Origin: a virus
Strand: one strand, 5' to 3'
IMG/VR virus record: IMGVR_UViG_3300032291_000773
Span: 1 to 26,143 of that record
Length of the DNA stretch: 26,143 nucleotides
The notes beneath the pieces were generated by a model. It saw only the letters and a program-made list of their open reading frames with translations, ran no database searches and had not been told where the DNA came from. This document shows, one piece after another, positions 18,514-23,080 of the stretch. The position numbers and the translations under genes are program-made. Position 1 is the stretch's first letter; each line of letters opens with the position of its first letter.

Positions 18514-18549
18514 TAATGAAGGGCGGCCGAAGCCGCCCCCGTTTCATTA
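18514..18549 (-). other. Stable UUCG-type hairpin at the coat stop codon
   Basis: On the minus strand GGGCGGC-TTCG-GCCGCCC forms a 7-bp stem with the very stable cUUCGg loop. The flanking TAATGAA and TTCATTA are also exact complements, with a 4-base bulge (18539-18542) between the two stems. The outer stem includes the coat stop codon. There is no T-run, so it is not a normal terminator; protection of the coat mRNA 3' end, or partial attenuation, fits better. Confidence 0.6.
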
Positions 18550-19788
18550 GGCTGCAACGCGGCAAGCCAGTTCGGGATACAAAGGCGCCCAACCGTAAAG
18601 AACGTCCAAACGTGTAGGAATGGAATCGTTGTTGATCGTGTATTGACGAACAACACGGATGGACAAGCCCAAATCCTTGTCGCTTGCGCGGCCAGCGAAG
18701 TGAACGCCGTCAGGCAACTCAAGGTCAGCGGTTGCCAAGGTCGCAAAATTCTTGTGGAAAACCAAGTTTTGCGGGCTGACAGTACCGGTGTTGTTGAAGG
18801 GTGTCACGACAGCGGATGCGCTGGTGGTTTGCACAACAACGTTTTGGAATTGGCCGCCGGTGATGATCGCGGGCGAAACAGTCACGGCAGTACCGCCACC
18901 AGTTGCAACGGCAGTTGTTGACATCACAACGAAGTTGCGAAGTTTGCCGTATGACTGACGGTTTTGTGGGTTCACGCCGTACACGCCAGCAATTTGAATC
19001 ACGTCGCCCTGGTTCAAGGTCAATGCGGAAGATGCAACCAATTGCACCGTGCCGAATTGCGCCCAACCAGTTGAAATGCCAAACGAAGCGGAAGTCGTGT
19101 CAACGGACAAAGTTTTGCCGCTGTACGAACCGAAGGTTTGGGACACAACGTTCTGATCCATGTACCAGTTCATGCCAGCGGAATCGCGGCCCATCATGCC
19201 TTTGGTGTATTGCTTGCCGATCACGTCGGAAGGAACAAACAAACCTTTCAGGCTGTCAACGATGGTGGCTGAAGTGAAGGGTTCAATCACGCATGAACGG
19301 CGGCCGTCGCGGGGTGCGCCTTCGCTGTCCATGTATGCGCCAGCGGTCAAATACGTAATCAAGCCGGTGGGCGGTGTGCCAGCCGTGCCGACGATGTTGG
19401 CCACGTTGTTTTTGGCCATTGTCAAGCCGTCGTAATCCATCTTGTTGGCAATGGCAGCCACGGCCGGTTTGAGAATTCGGTCGCTGAATGCGTCCAGGCT
19501 CAAAGCCAGGTCTTGGGTGGTGAATTGCGTGTCAACGTGGAATTGGGTTGACAAAGTGACGGGCACGCTGGTTTCGTTGAAGTCTTCAACGTTCAGCGCG
19601 GGGCCAGTTGTACCGATGAAACGGCCAGGACGACGGACGTTCAAGGTGTTACCGATTTTGGCGCCGGTGACAGCAAATTGGTCGTCGTATTCGCGGGTGA
19701 CGTTGTTTGTGAACGTCAATTCGTTTTCAAGAACCATCAACGCTTCGTTGGTGATTTTCGAAATCGTCAGTAAGTTATTTCCAGACAT
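18547..19788 (-). CDS. Major capsid protein (P22 coat-protein family)
   Basis: The 413-residue protein forms the icosahedral shell. It has the P22-coat-type start, with L-L-T-I-S-K-I-T-N-E-A-L-M-V-L-E-N and F-T-N-N-V-T-R-E-Y-D-D-Q-F, then I-G-N-T-L-N-V-R-R-P-G-R-F, T-L-S-T-Q-F-H-V-D-T-Q-F-T and D-R-I-L-K-P-A-V-A-A-I-A-N-K. These form the HK97-like N-arm/E-loop region of that family. The length agrees with P22 gp5 (430). The later part has a beta-rich insertion-type region (about 230-340), as in P22 coat. It directly follows the scaffold gene with a TAGGAAAA ribosome site. The GC-rich hairpin at its stop codon is noted separately. Confidence 0.9.
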   Translation of the reverse strand: MSGNNLLTISKITNEALMVLENELTFTNNVTREYDDQFAVTGAKIGNTLNVRRPGRFIGTTGPALNVEDFNETSVPVTLSTQFHVDTQFTTQDLALSLDAFSDRILKPAVAAIANKMDYDGLTMAKNNVANIVGTAGTPPTGLITYLTAGAYMDSEGAPRDGRRSCVIEPFTSATIVDSLKGLFVPSDVIGKQYTKGMMGRDSAGMNWYMDQNVVSQTFGSYSGKTLSVDTTSASFGISTGWAQFGTVQLVASSALTLNQGDVIQIAGVYGVNPQNRQSYGKLRNFVVMSTTAVATGGGTAVTVSPAIITGGQFQNVVVQTTSASAVVTPFNNTGTVSPQNLVFHKNFATLATADLELPDGVHFAGRASDKDLGLSIRVVRQYTINNDSIPTRLDVLYGWAPLYPELACRVAA

Positions 19789-19818: not shown

Positions 19819-20778
19819 TCAGCGAATCTGCCTGTTTTGGCGGGCTGCTTTCCATTGGGCAAATGTACCGTGAAAATTGCCATCGGCATCCACGTTGTTG
19901 TCCGTCTTGGAAAGCGCACCGCGAATCGGGCTGATTGGCGCTGGCGCTTTTGATTTCACCGCGGTCGATTTCACTTCCGGTTCGCTGGCTTTGGGTGCGG
20001 TCTTTTCAAACTGCGCCTCAAGTCTGCCGATTTGTCGAAGGGCTGAAATTACGGAACCTTCGCCAAGTTTTTTGGCAAAGTCGGGATTTTCGGCCAGGTG
20101 ATAAAGGATTTGTGGCCCCACATCACTTTCCATGATCGCGTCGCGCACGGGGTCTGAAATAGACACATCGCTTGACTGAACCATGTCGTCGAAATCCGGC
20201 ATTTCGCTTCTCGCTGCATTCACGCGGTCGGCCCAACTCTTTTCGAATTGCGCCCGTTGTTCCGCGGCCTTGCGATTTGCTTCAGCCTGGTCACGTTCCA
20301 TCAACTTCTTGTCAGCGGTATATTCGGCCAACGCTTTCGCGTATTCGAACATATCGTTGAATTCTTCAGGCTTGGGTTCGGGGCCAAAATCGTCCTGGGC
20401 TTTCGCTGGTGGATTGATCTTAGTTTCCAGTTCCTTCAACCTGGCTTCCAGTTCTTGCCGTGCTTCGCGTTCCTTTTGGGCTTCGGCCTTTGCGGCTTCG
20501 CGTTGCTTGGTAATTTCTGAAAAGCGCCTTTCGATCTTCGGGTTCGCCTTGCGTTCCTTTTGATCGTCTTCTACGGTCGCCTCATTCCCTTCCCCGTCTG
20601 AATCACTCTGATCGGCCTGATTTTCCGGCTCGTCAGCAACCTGGGTTTCCCCGTCGTTTGCTGGCGCCTCGGTGGTTTCAGGCGTCGCGTCAACTAATCC
20701 AAGTTTACGGGCGGTGAATTCCGCTAAATTGTCACTTGTCACCACGTTAGCGGCGACACGTTCTTGCACTTCGGACAT
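19819..20778 (-). CDS. Scaffolding protein (P22 gp8-like)
   Basis: The 319-residue protein guides coat assembly and leaves or is cleaved before packaging is complete. It has an acidic, disordered N-terminus (about 36-75, rich in Glu, Asp, Gln, Thr) and long charged coiled-coil helices (about 80-122 and 148-190). The short basic C-terminus, F-A-Q-W-K-A-A-R-Q-N-R-Q-I-R, is like the coat-binding helix pair at the end of P22 scaffold. Its place between portal and coat is the expected one, and P22 gp8 is of similar length (303). The 79 bases before it carry the promoter-like and hairpin signals described separately. The ribosome site TAGGG precedes ATG 20778. Confidence 0.85.
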   Translation of the reverse strand: MSEVQERVAANVVTSDNLAEFTARKLGLVDATPETTEAPANDGETQVADEPENQADQSDSDGEGNEATVEDDQKERKANPKIERRFSEITKQREAAKAEAQKEREARQELEARLKELETKINPPAKAQDDFGPEPKPEEFNDMFEYAKALAEYTADKKLMERDQAEANRKAAEQRAQFEKSWADRVNAARSEMPDFDDMVQSSDVSISDPVRDAIMESDVGPQILYHLAENPDFAKKLGEGSVISALRQIGRLEAQFEKTAPKASEPEVKSTAVKSKAPAPISPIRGALSKTDNNVDADGNFHGTFAQWKAARQNRQIR

Positions 20779-20785
20779 ACGTATC

Positions 20786-20820
20786 CCTACGAATCAACCC
20801 AATGAAAACCCATTGGTAGG
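20786..20820 (-). promoter_or_regulatory. Hairpin able to cover the scaffold ribosome site
   Basis: On the minus strand CCAATG and CATTGG form a 6-bp stem with a GGTTTT loop. The flanking CCTA pairs with the TAGG of the scaffold ribosome-binding site, leaving a bulge on one side. If folded, the site is partly hidden. P22 scaffold synthesis is known to be controlled after transcription, so this is a plausible control element. Confidence 0.45.
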
Positions 20821-20822
20821 TT

Positions 20823-20837
20823 GGTTAATTGTTAACC
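20823..20837. promoter_or_regulatory. Perfect inverted repeat (operator-like) over the -10 region
   Basis: ggttaa and ttaacc are exact complements with three bases between them. The dyad covers the putative -10 box of the promoter at 20828-20857 and could bind a dimeric regulator. No regulator is identified in the window. Confidence 0.4.
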
Positions 20838-20857
20838 GGAATCAATCTCATTGTCAA
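20828..20857 (-). promoter_or_regulatory. Candidate promoter for scaffold and coat
   Basis: The minus strand has a consensus -35 box TTGACA (20852-20857), an 18-base spacer and AACAAT (20828-20833), four of six matches to the -10 consensus. Start of transcription would fall near 20820, about 40 bases before the scaffold ATG. The 79-base gap between portal and scaffold is the longest gap between head genes. Confidence 0.45.
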
Positions 20858-23080
20858 CTATTGTGGCATGGCCATTGGCTGCTGCATTTGCGGCGCCATT
20901 TCGGGCTGCATTTGCGGCTGCATTTGTTGTTGCGGCATTTGGCCAGGAATACCCGACGCCATGTCCATTTGACCAATGAACGGGCTGGCGCCCTGGTGAA
21001 TATCCTCTGCCGCAACGCTTGAAAACGCATACTGTTCGGCGTTCATTTGCTCGATGCGACGCAATAGGTCTTCGGGCGACATATTGGCCAACAACAGTTT
21101 GACCACCGCGTCGATTTCCGTTTTGTTTTGGCTAGTGATTGACCTGGTGTTTTGATCGTTGACTTTGACTTCGGCCATCGTTTCGGTGTTGTGCGCCTTG
21201 GCGATGCCCTTGATAAGTTCGCGGCGGGTTTCGCCTTCCTGGCGCACACCCTCTTTGGTGACGCCGTATTTGATATCCAGGCCCATTGCTTGCATTTGCT
21301 GTTGCTGTTCTTGCACCATCTTTTGCAGTTGCAGCAACTTCATTTGAACCTGGGGTGGAATGTCGATCTTCTCGTCGATCTGCGACAGCGGGTTCATGGC
21401 TGCCAGGCGATCGGCGATCACGTCGGCGCCAGGGAAATCCATGTTGCGGAACAATAGGTCGCCCGCCACCTGGAAAATCTCGTTTTGGGCCATCAAAGGC
21501 ATCATGGCTTCGACGGCTTCCATTCGCTTGCTGTTGTAGCCTGGGCCGGTGTCCATCACCACATCGTATTCGCCCACCGTGACGTTGTTCAACACTTCGC
21601 CGGTGGCTTGCATATCGTTCAGCGTCACCAGGTCGGGTTTGCCATCCACACCAATGATTCGCAATACGCGTTTGGTGTCGTAAATCTTGGGTATCAAGTC
21701 CAGGATGATTTTGCCGGTGTGCTTGATCGAACGCGTCATGTTGTCGTAGAAGTGGAAGTTCGACATATCCACTTGCTGTTGCTGGCCTTGTAAGGCTTTG
21801 CCCGACACGTTGCCAATCATTTGCTGCGCTGGATCAAAGATACCCAACACGGTTTGCAAGTCCTGGCCAACTTCGCTGGCCGCTTCCATGATGCCCGCGG
21901 GTGGTGGTTCAGGCTGCAAACGTTGTGGTGGCGGCGCGGTGCGGCCTTCAATGTCGGTTTGCTTGTAACGCAACACCGGCATCGACTTGATGTTGGCCAG
22001 CGCCCAATCGTTTTCGTGGCCTTCGTCCTGGCCTTCGGCCATCACCCATTTGGCCTTTGGCGCCAGGGCGATGGATTCGGTCAGGCTGGTGCGCCAAAAG
22101 TTGAACATTCGCTGCGGGTCTTTGGCGTTGCGAATCAGGCCGTATTTTTTGCGCTTGCCTTCGATGGTCACCTGGGCGCCGTAGCACGGAACAATCGGAA
22201 TCCACTTGCCCGCCCATTCCTTTTCTTCCAGGATTTGCATGGCGGTCATCTTGCACCACTTCACCGTTTTGCGGTACGAAGGGCGGCGGTCAATCTCGAC
22301 AATACCCGCTTCGTCCAACACGGCTTTGGGTGGCAGTTTGTCGGCCCATTCCTTTGTGCCATCGGACAACATCACCAGGTCGTGTTTCACGCGGTCGATG
22401 TAGAAGTATTCAGCGATGCGAATATCCTCTTTTGTCACCCATTCGGCGCTGCTATCACCAGTTGCGCGGGGCTGGAAACCCACGCCATCGTCGGCGCCTG
22501 GGTACATTTGACGGAATACGTGCTTCGGAATCACGCTGGCGATCAACACCTTTTCAGCGTCGGAACCATCGGGCGCCACGCTGTTGGGGTCGAAGTAAAC
22601 GGAAAACGGGTCGTCGATTGGTTCGATAAAAATGTCCTGGTCGAACGAATCTTCGCGCACGTAATCGGTCACCACGCGCCAGTAACCCCAACCCATTCGC
22701 ACGGCATACGAAAACGCGGTGTCGTAAGCGGTGTCGGCGTTGCTGTTGACCTCAATGTGTCGGGTGATCCCTTCGATCACCTGGGCGACCTTCAAATCGC
22801 CTTCGTTGTTGACGGGGTGAACCTTGATGCGCGGGCGCTGCTGTCGCTGCTGGTTTTCAACCTGGCGGCAATATGCGTCGATCTTGTTGATCGTCAGGCA
22901 CGGGCGGGCTTCAATGTTGCGGCTGTTTTGAATCTCAACCGGCCATTGATCGCCAGCGCCGAATTTCAAATCCTGAAGGGCAGCCGAACGGTTATTGGAA
23001 TCGGCCTCACCCACCAGGCGCAAGAATTTAATCGCGTCCTGGATGCGTGGGTCTTCGGATTGGTCTTGGTAATCTGACAT
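20858..23080 (-). CDS. Portal protein (P22 gp1-like)
   Basis: The 740-residue protein forms the 12-mer ring through which DNA enters and leaves. The N-terminus has D-L-K-F-G-A-G-D-Q-W-P, R-P-C-L-T-I-N-K-I-D-A-Y-C-R-Q-V-E-N-Q-Q-R-Q-Q-R-P in its opening 85 residues, a strong match to P22-type portals. It continues with G-W-G-Y-W-R-V and D-P-F-S-V-Y-F-D-P. The length fits P22 gp1 (725). A coiled-coil rich in Gln (about 585-605) lies near the C-terminus, in the place of the P22 barrel helix. The last 30 residues are Gln/Met/Pro-rich repeats. The ribosome site AAGGGG precedes ATG 23080, 22 bases after the large terminase stop. Confidence 0.9.
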   Translation of the reverse strand: MSDYQDQSEDPRIQDAIKFLRLVGEADSNNRSAALQDLKFGAGDQWPVEIQNSRNIEARPCLTINKIDAYCRQVENQQRQQRPRIKVHPVNNEGDLKVAQVIEGITRHIEVNSNADTAYDTAFSYAVRMGWGYWRVVTDYVREDSFDQDIFIEPIDDPFSVYFDPNSVAPDGSDAEKVLIASVIPKHVFRQMYPGADDGVGFQPRATGDSSAEWVTKEDIRIAEYFYIDRVKHDLVMLSDGTKEWADKLPPKAVLDEAGIVEIDRRPSYRKTVKWCKMTAMQILEEKEWAGKWIPIVPCYGAQVTIEGKRKKYGLIRNAKDPQRMFNFWRTSLTESIALAPKAKWVMAEGQDEGHENDWALANIKSMPVLRYKQTDIEGRTAPPPQRLQPEPPPAGIMEAASEVGQDLQTVLGIFDPAQQMIGNVSGKALQGQQQQVDMSNFHFYDNMTRSIKHTGKIILDLIPKIYDTKRVLRIIGVDGKPDLVTLNDMQATGEVLNNVTVGEYDVVMDTGPGYNSKRMEAVEAMMPLMAQNEIFQVAGDLLFRNMDFPGADVIADRLAAMNPLSQIDEKIDIPPQVQMKLLQLQKMVQEQQQQMQAMGLDIKYGVTKEGVRQEGETRRELIKGIAKAHNTETMAEVKVNDQNTRSITSQNKTEIDAVVKLLLANMSPEDLLRRIEQMNAEQYAFSSVAAEDIHQGASPFIGQMDMASGIPGQMPQQQMQPQMQPEMAPQMQQPMAMPQ
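20864..20945 (-). repeat. Short imperfect repeats encoding a Gln/Met/Pro tail of the portal
   Basis: Units close to GCTGCATTTGCGGC (plus strand reading) recur about five times and encode M-Q-P-Q-M-Q-P-E-M-A-P-Q-M-Q-Q-P at the portal C-terminus. The repeat is in frame and does not disturb the gene. It is a likely site of length change between related phages. Confidence 0.6.

Follow-up and report, generated by a model that had tools for sequence, protein, structure and literature searches.

How is the synthesis of the scaffold protein controlled in a phage with a P22-like order of capsid genes, and what part in it is played by the short gap preceding the scaffold gene? Autoregulation by free scaffold is a classic phenomenon of phage P22, where it acts post-transcriptionally, and to our knowledge the RNA target of this regulation has never been defined. 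The locus investigated in this study is contained in a 26-kb viral record, which was analysed as a whole (positions 1–26143, in the following termed the window), and is encoded on the minus strand in the order terminase small and large subunit, portal, scaffold and coat. The P22-like portal gene (20858–23080, minus strand; PF16510, E 1.1e-176) is located upstream of a gap of 79 bases, which is followed by the scaffold gene (19819–20778, minus strand; phrog_8865, E 1.3e-37) and, next in the operon, by the gene of a P22-type coat protein (18547–19788, minus strand; PF11651). The gap opens with the motif TTGACA right behind the stop codon of portal and continues with an 18-nt spacer, the motif AACAAT and the leader AACCUACCAAUGGGUUUUCAUUGGGUUGAUUCGUAGGGAUACGU-AUG. 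Our analysis leads us to favour, with somewhat better than even confidence, a view of this gap as an internal promoter joined to a structured cis-regulatory leader RNA, whose ligand would most probably be free scaffold.

The window by itself offers little to decide the question. A scan for promoter-like sites found 6 compared to 5.5 expected by chance and the folds of the leader were no better than those of shuffled sequences (z of 0.28, −0.15, −0.80 and 0.47), which is why single-sequence folding was discarded as evidence for structure. Since both approaches were uninformative, the evidence presented here is comparative. Searches with the scaffold protein provided about 200 loci from IMG/VR, to which named phages were added via protein searches, whereas a distant-mode DNA search with the scaffold region of the window found no match in phage records. 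The 202 extracted leaders contain 104 distinct sequences over 62 nt, 100 of which could be parsed, and 82 distinct cores. The scaffold proteins of the representative alignment show identities to the protein of the window that extend from 71% down to 21%.

A promoter, as judged from sequence, is located in the gap between portal and scaffold. Its −35 element TTGACA (20852–20857, minus strand) and −10 element AACAAT (20828–20833, minus strand), which had been proposed in a first-pass annotation of this DNA, predict a transcript start at around position 20821. This promoter is conserved in relatives, as the best sigma70-like site ends 9–13 nt before an invariant UA of the downstream element in 72 of 86 distinct upstream regions, and sites scoring at least 9/12 are found in 67% of these regions compared to 11% of shuffles. 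In addition to scaffold, the promoter presumably drives the expression of coat.

The same annotation had pointed to a perfect dyad, GGTTAA-ttg-TTAACC, over the −10 element (20823–20837), and had suggested it as the site of a repressor or activator. The dyad is indeed there as the single perfect copy of the window, with the next best candidate showing three mismatches. However, it is perfect in the window and in the relative L001 but broken in L003–L018, as in most other close relatives, whereas in other clades it is either absent or, where it exists, has arms with different letters. Its function is thus doubtful and it was dropped as a conserved operator. Unrelated to this question, 6-bp inverted repeats with spacers of 3–8 nt are generally frequent in the window, where they are more than twice as numerous (79) as in shuffled sequence (27–44). 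A pairing of CCTAC with GTAGG of the ribosome site, the second component of the initial proposal, is physically possible and was seen in one fold. Among the relatives, at least five contiguous pairs between leader and ribosome-binding site (RBS) are found in 20 of 75 cases and the observed mean is reached by 9% of recombined controls. The pairing is thus not conserved and shows no significant excess over these controls. Although both sequences exist in the window, it appears exceedingly unlikely that the locus would be governed by the pairing of a hairpin flank with the Shine-Dalgarno sequence in combination with a dyad that serves as operator for a DNA-binding regulator.

What has instead emerged from the comparison is a pseudoknot of the H-type at the 5' end of the leader, composed of the helices S1 (AACC/GGUU, with three covarying pairs) and S2 (CCAAUG/CAUUGG, with six pairs) and the loop L1 (UA). 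All parts are encoded on the minus strand. The 5' strand of S1 (ACC, 20819–20821) pairs with its 3' strand (GGT, 20808–20810) inside the loop of S2, which makes the pseudoknot, and A20822 may contribute a fourth pair. L1 (20817–20818) separates S1 from the 5' strand of S2 (CCAATG, 20811–20816), which pairs with the covarying 3' strand (CATTGG, 20799–20804). A single-stranded linker (GTTGATT, 20792–20798) with the consensus G-U/C-nn-AAUU in our alignments A2 and A3 leads to the opening C of a second hairpin termed P2. In relatives, the three bases that precede the UA pair with the three that open the S2 loop, and the resulting strand order S1-UA-S2-S1-L3-S2 corresponds to an H-type pseudoknot. 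The UA was found in 100 of 100 parsed distinct leaders, a number to be read in light of an anchor search that favoured TA; in one held-out relative, L246, it is replaced by CA. Strong conservation is seen for both the unpaired UA and the unpaired segment AAUUC.

The sequence of S1 varies extensively while its pairing is maintained, from ACC/GGU in the window to GCU/AGC in L114, ACG/CGU in L170, CCG/CGG in Thalassomonas phage BA3, GGC/GCC in Shewanella phage X14, GGU/ACC in L206 and AGC/GCU in VvAW1. Covariation was quantified on a tree of the scaffold proteins against independent columns simulated on the same tree in 400 runs, using our own simple version of such a simulation and leaders that had been anchored on S2 with pairing as one of the criteria, whereas S1 played no part in this step. 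In S1, branches where both sides have changed with pairing retained amount to 10, 4 and 8 for the three pairs, which was reached in 0 of 400 simulations; for the six pairs of S2 the counts on the same tree are 1, 3, 18, 8, 0 and 6, the value of 18 being found at pair b3. If four positions of S1 are counted, 88.7% of cells pair in the proposed register compared to 26–60% in neighbouring ones, but the outermost position (a1) has no support, which leaves three certain pairs. An independent count in two MAFFT alignments, with 95.6% and 92.2% of cells paired, is above 500 of 500 shuffles. In these alignments, pairing falls to 21–54% if the partners are shifted by one to three columns, and the covariation scores of 0.577 and 0.531 compare to 0.22 and 0.20 in shuffled data. 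Collectively, S1, S2 and the hairpin P2 all covary beyond tree-aware or recombination nulls.

P2 (CGUA-GGGA-UACG, 20780–20791, minus strand) encloses the Shine-Dalgarno sequence AGGG of scaffold and ends beside the AUG. In relatives, it extends from the conserved UUC to the start codon with the Shine-Dalgarno sequence residing in the 5' arm or the loop, and its arms change in concert, as exemplified by UAGG-GAAA-CCUA in L022, UUGAG-GAAA-CUCAA in L044, UGGA-GUAA-UCCA in L062 and CGUAUA-GGACUA-UAUACG in BA3. The hairpin is formed in 43 of 45 distinct tails, whose mean minimum free energy (MFE) of −3.62 kcal/mol compares to −1.48 kcal/mol (sd 0.19) after recombining halves, a difference of about 11 sd. 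With about −2 to −6 kcal/mol it is marginally stable, and in many relatives it also contains the A of the AUG. P2-like hairpins were also observed before the scaffold genes of Xanthomonas phage PBR31 (UGGA-GUAA-UCCA-UG) and Pseudomonas phage PAE2 (UGGA-GUGA-UCCA-UG), where they lie 3' of a terminator-like hairpin, with no pseudoknot and no significant matches to our models.

With respect to the initial reading of the leader, the pairing CCAATG/CATTGG within its hairpin is thus real and corresponds to S2 (20799–20816), whereas the pairing attributed to its flank is not above recombined controls. The idea of an RNA control of the scaffold ribosome site has gained comparative support, but from a pseudoknot and a separate Shine-Dalgarno hairpin rather than from one hairpin pairing with the RBS; both selected features, S1 and P2, were absent from that proposal.

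The weakness of P2 implies that it might set a fixed translation level only. Compared at the same loci, the mean MFE at the RBS is −0.71 for coat and −3.59 kcal/mol for scaffold, and values at or below −2 kcal/mol are found in 9% of cases for coat but 96% for scaffold, with the coat RBS of relatives being unstructured. P2 alone would reduce initiation, and since the scaffold of P22 is reusable, less of it is needed. It is thus conceivable, though in our view unlikely, that pseudoknot and hairpin passively fix a low translation of scaffold relative to coat and that no ligand is involved. However, a weak Shine-Dalgarno sequence would suffice for a fixed rate, and such passive tuning would leave the covarying pseudoknot with its invariant UA and the conserved linker unexplained.

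The specificity of the element was investigated with covariance models, which show a single strong match, at the start of scaffold, in almost every phage record tested. In the window, whose sequence was included in the model, the match spans 20776–20823 (59.1 bits, E 9.4e-17), and the complete arrangement is found, consisting of the S1–S2 pseudoknot, the UA of L1, the linker and P2 at the RBS directly 5' of a phrog_8865 scaffold. Exceptions are L120 and L121 (G018), whose diverged and apparently duplicated leaders give weak matches only, and a further weak match was obtained for L204 (G037). The leader of L120 (and L121) contains seemingly two tandem pseudoknot-like units, AGCUUACUAGUUAGCUUUUAACUAG followed by AUUAUUAGCAGUUAAUUUUUUAACUGAG, whereas in the diverged leader of L203 and L204 a different longer hairpin replaces S2 and the UUCG-P2 part is retained. 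In L248 (G613), three tandem S2-like hairpins (UUUACG...CGGGUU repeats) located 5' of scaffold are followed by a long hairpin at the RBS whose loop contains AGGG. In L087 (MW202557), a gene on the opposite strand is annotated over the scaffold open frame, which is probably an annotation error.

Carriers of the element include phages of Vibrio, Shewanella and Thalassomonas, and it was further found in bacterial genomes (Stenotrophomonas, Burkholderiales) as well as in metagenomes. Outside of model building, where S1 combinations such as AAGG/CCUU were encountered, all three helices are found in metagenome-assembled genomes of Burkholderiales (L218) and Pseudomonadota (L219), in Stenotrophomonas (L223) and in L246. 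They are also kept in L229, L231 and L240, which were identified outside the models by a pattern that fixed some S2 bases and did not impose S1 and P2. When 247 genomes from the family of the Stenotrophomonas strain were scanned, the element was detected in that strain only. No full-length covariance-model match was found in P22 and seven other P22-like records, and the element was not found in Xanthomonas phage PBR31, Rhodoferax phage P26218, EBPR podovirus 1, ctTUS972, PAE2, DSL-LC05 and P22. So far, it was always located upstream of phrog_8865-type scaffold genes and, except for L120/L121, once per phage record.

The spacing of the promoter relative to the UA places the expected start of transcription into the first strand of S1, and the predicted start coincides with this strand in most relatives. 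The pseudoknot could consequently tuck in the first nucleotides of the capsid mRNA and shield it from 5'-dependent decay, but we regard a role as 5' end stabiliser as improbable, since an RBS hairpin is not needed for such protection and since the element also occurs inside longer transcripts. No evident promoter was found at the element in the prophage-like Stenotrophomonas locus L223 or in L244, where it is next to or overlaps the portal end, and the same probably applies to L246. Its retention in such relatives illustrates that the RNA itself is the conserved item.

The element does not belong to any family of Rfam 15, which showed no match at gathering threshold and nothing beyond noise (9.4–11.7 bits, E up to 10). 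Its parts nevertheless resemble known devices. Small RBS hairpins that are targeted by a phage protein are exemplified by the coat/replicase hairpin of MS2, and compact H-type pseudoknots near the RBS by the SAM-II and preQ1-I riboswitches, although metabolite riboswitches usually serve metabolic genes. The T4 gene 43 operator (PMC3014915) is likewise a small hairpin at the RBS of a phage gene to which a phage protein binds. The MS2 and gene 43 operators are hairpins of proven binding that do not contain a pseudoknot, in contrast to the scaffold leader, which is a putative operator that does. According to PMC7367207, the SAM/SAH riboswitch likewise features a small H-type pseudoknot adjoining the RBS. 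Together with the strong conservation of the unpaired UA and AAUUC, this similarity would be compatible with a different ligand, which might be coat or a further phage protein, but also an RNA-binding protein of the host or a small molecule. In light of the confinement of the element to phrog_8865-type scaffold genes, once per phage record, and a gene context of capsid assembly rather than metabolism, we consider this alternative rather unlikely.

A close parallel is provided by T4, whose gp32 represses its own mRNA via a pseudoknot in the leader, which a 2010 review regarded as possibly the sole viral example in translational autoregulation (PMC3014915). In both systems, the phage gene under control is preceded by a 5' leader with an H-type pseudoknot. 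However, in T4 gene 32 the pseudoknot is located about 67 nt before the start codon and the RBS region 3' of it, A+U-rich and unstructured, is coated by gp32, whereas in the scaffold leader the pseudoknot resides beside a covarying hairpin enclosing the RBS, and the controlled gene encodes a capsid scaffold (phrog_8865) instead of a single-strand binding protein. With scaffold as downstream gene and the RBS inside P2, membership in the gene 32 type of operators was rejected. As for P22, the autoregulation of scaffold is a published phenomenon, a title on which is cited in PMC5744158. Its gene 8 also resides between portal and a P22-type coat, but the preceding gap measures 13 nt and contains neither pseudoknot nor P2 nor a model match, so the regulation in P22 relies on something other than this element.

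Promoter, pseudoknot, P2, their position and their specificity are established by comparison of sequences, which strongly supports an arrangement where the promoter of scaffold would be immediately followed by an RNA structure controlling its ribosome site. Given where the leader lies, that it is tied exclusively to one gene and that it encloses the RBS, the translation of scaffold is very likely under its control. A role of scaffold as its own repressor is plausible, with free scaffold as the leading candidate due to the known autoregulation in P22 and the T4 leader pseudoknot with the same logic; against this view, P22 itself has no such element, and coat or a host factor might just as well act as regulator. 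In the proposed mechanism, RNA polymerase would start at around 20821, so that the first nucleotides (AACC) would form S1 with the loop of the S2 hairpin, and the short conserved linker would lead from the pseudoknot to P2 holding the Shine-Dalgarno sequence. Ribosomes would be able to open the weak P2, whereas the pseudoknot would most likely offer a recognition platform for a protein involved in capsid assembly, most probably scaffold in its free, unassembled form, which when bound to pseudoknot and P2 would lock the RBS and thus match scaffold synthesis to assembly. We tentatively assign a nearly even chance to the full proposal of an undescribed RNA family that acts as scaffold translational operator, in which free scaffold reads the 5'-terminal pseudoknot and clamps the RBS hairpin.

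No description of the element was found in the literature searched, whose restriction to open-licence papers does not permit a proof of absence; the type of device is known, and its combination and the gene are new. Paired mutations keep the structure of this leader across about 200 related phage sequences and thus provide a concrete RNA target for the question of scaffold supply. This target is compact with its about 46 nt, its pairs are predicted and many compensatory variants of it exist in nature, and in conjunction with the cultured hosts (Vibrio, Shewanella, Thalassomonas) it makes binding and repression directly testable. The element would join the very few pseudoknots of viruses with a role in translational control and, if our proposal is true, scaffold synthesis would be coupled to procapsid assembly across many phages with P22-like capsids of Gammaproteobacteria, including the former Betaproteobacteria.
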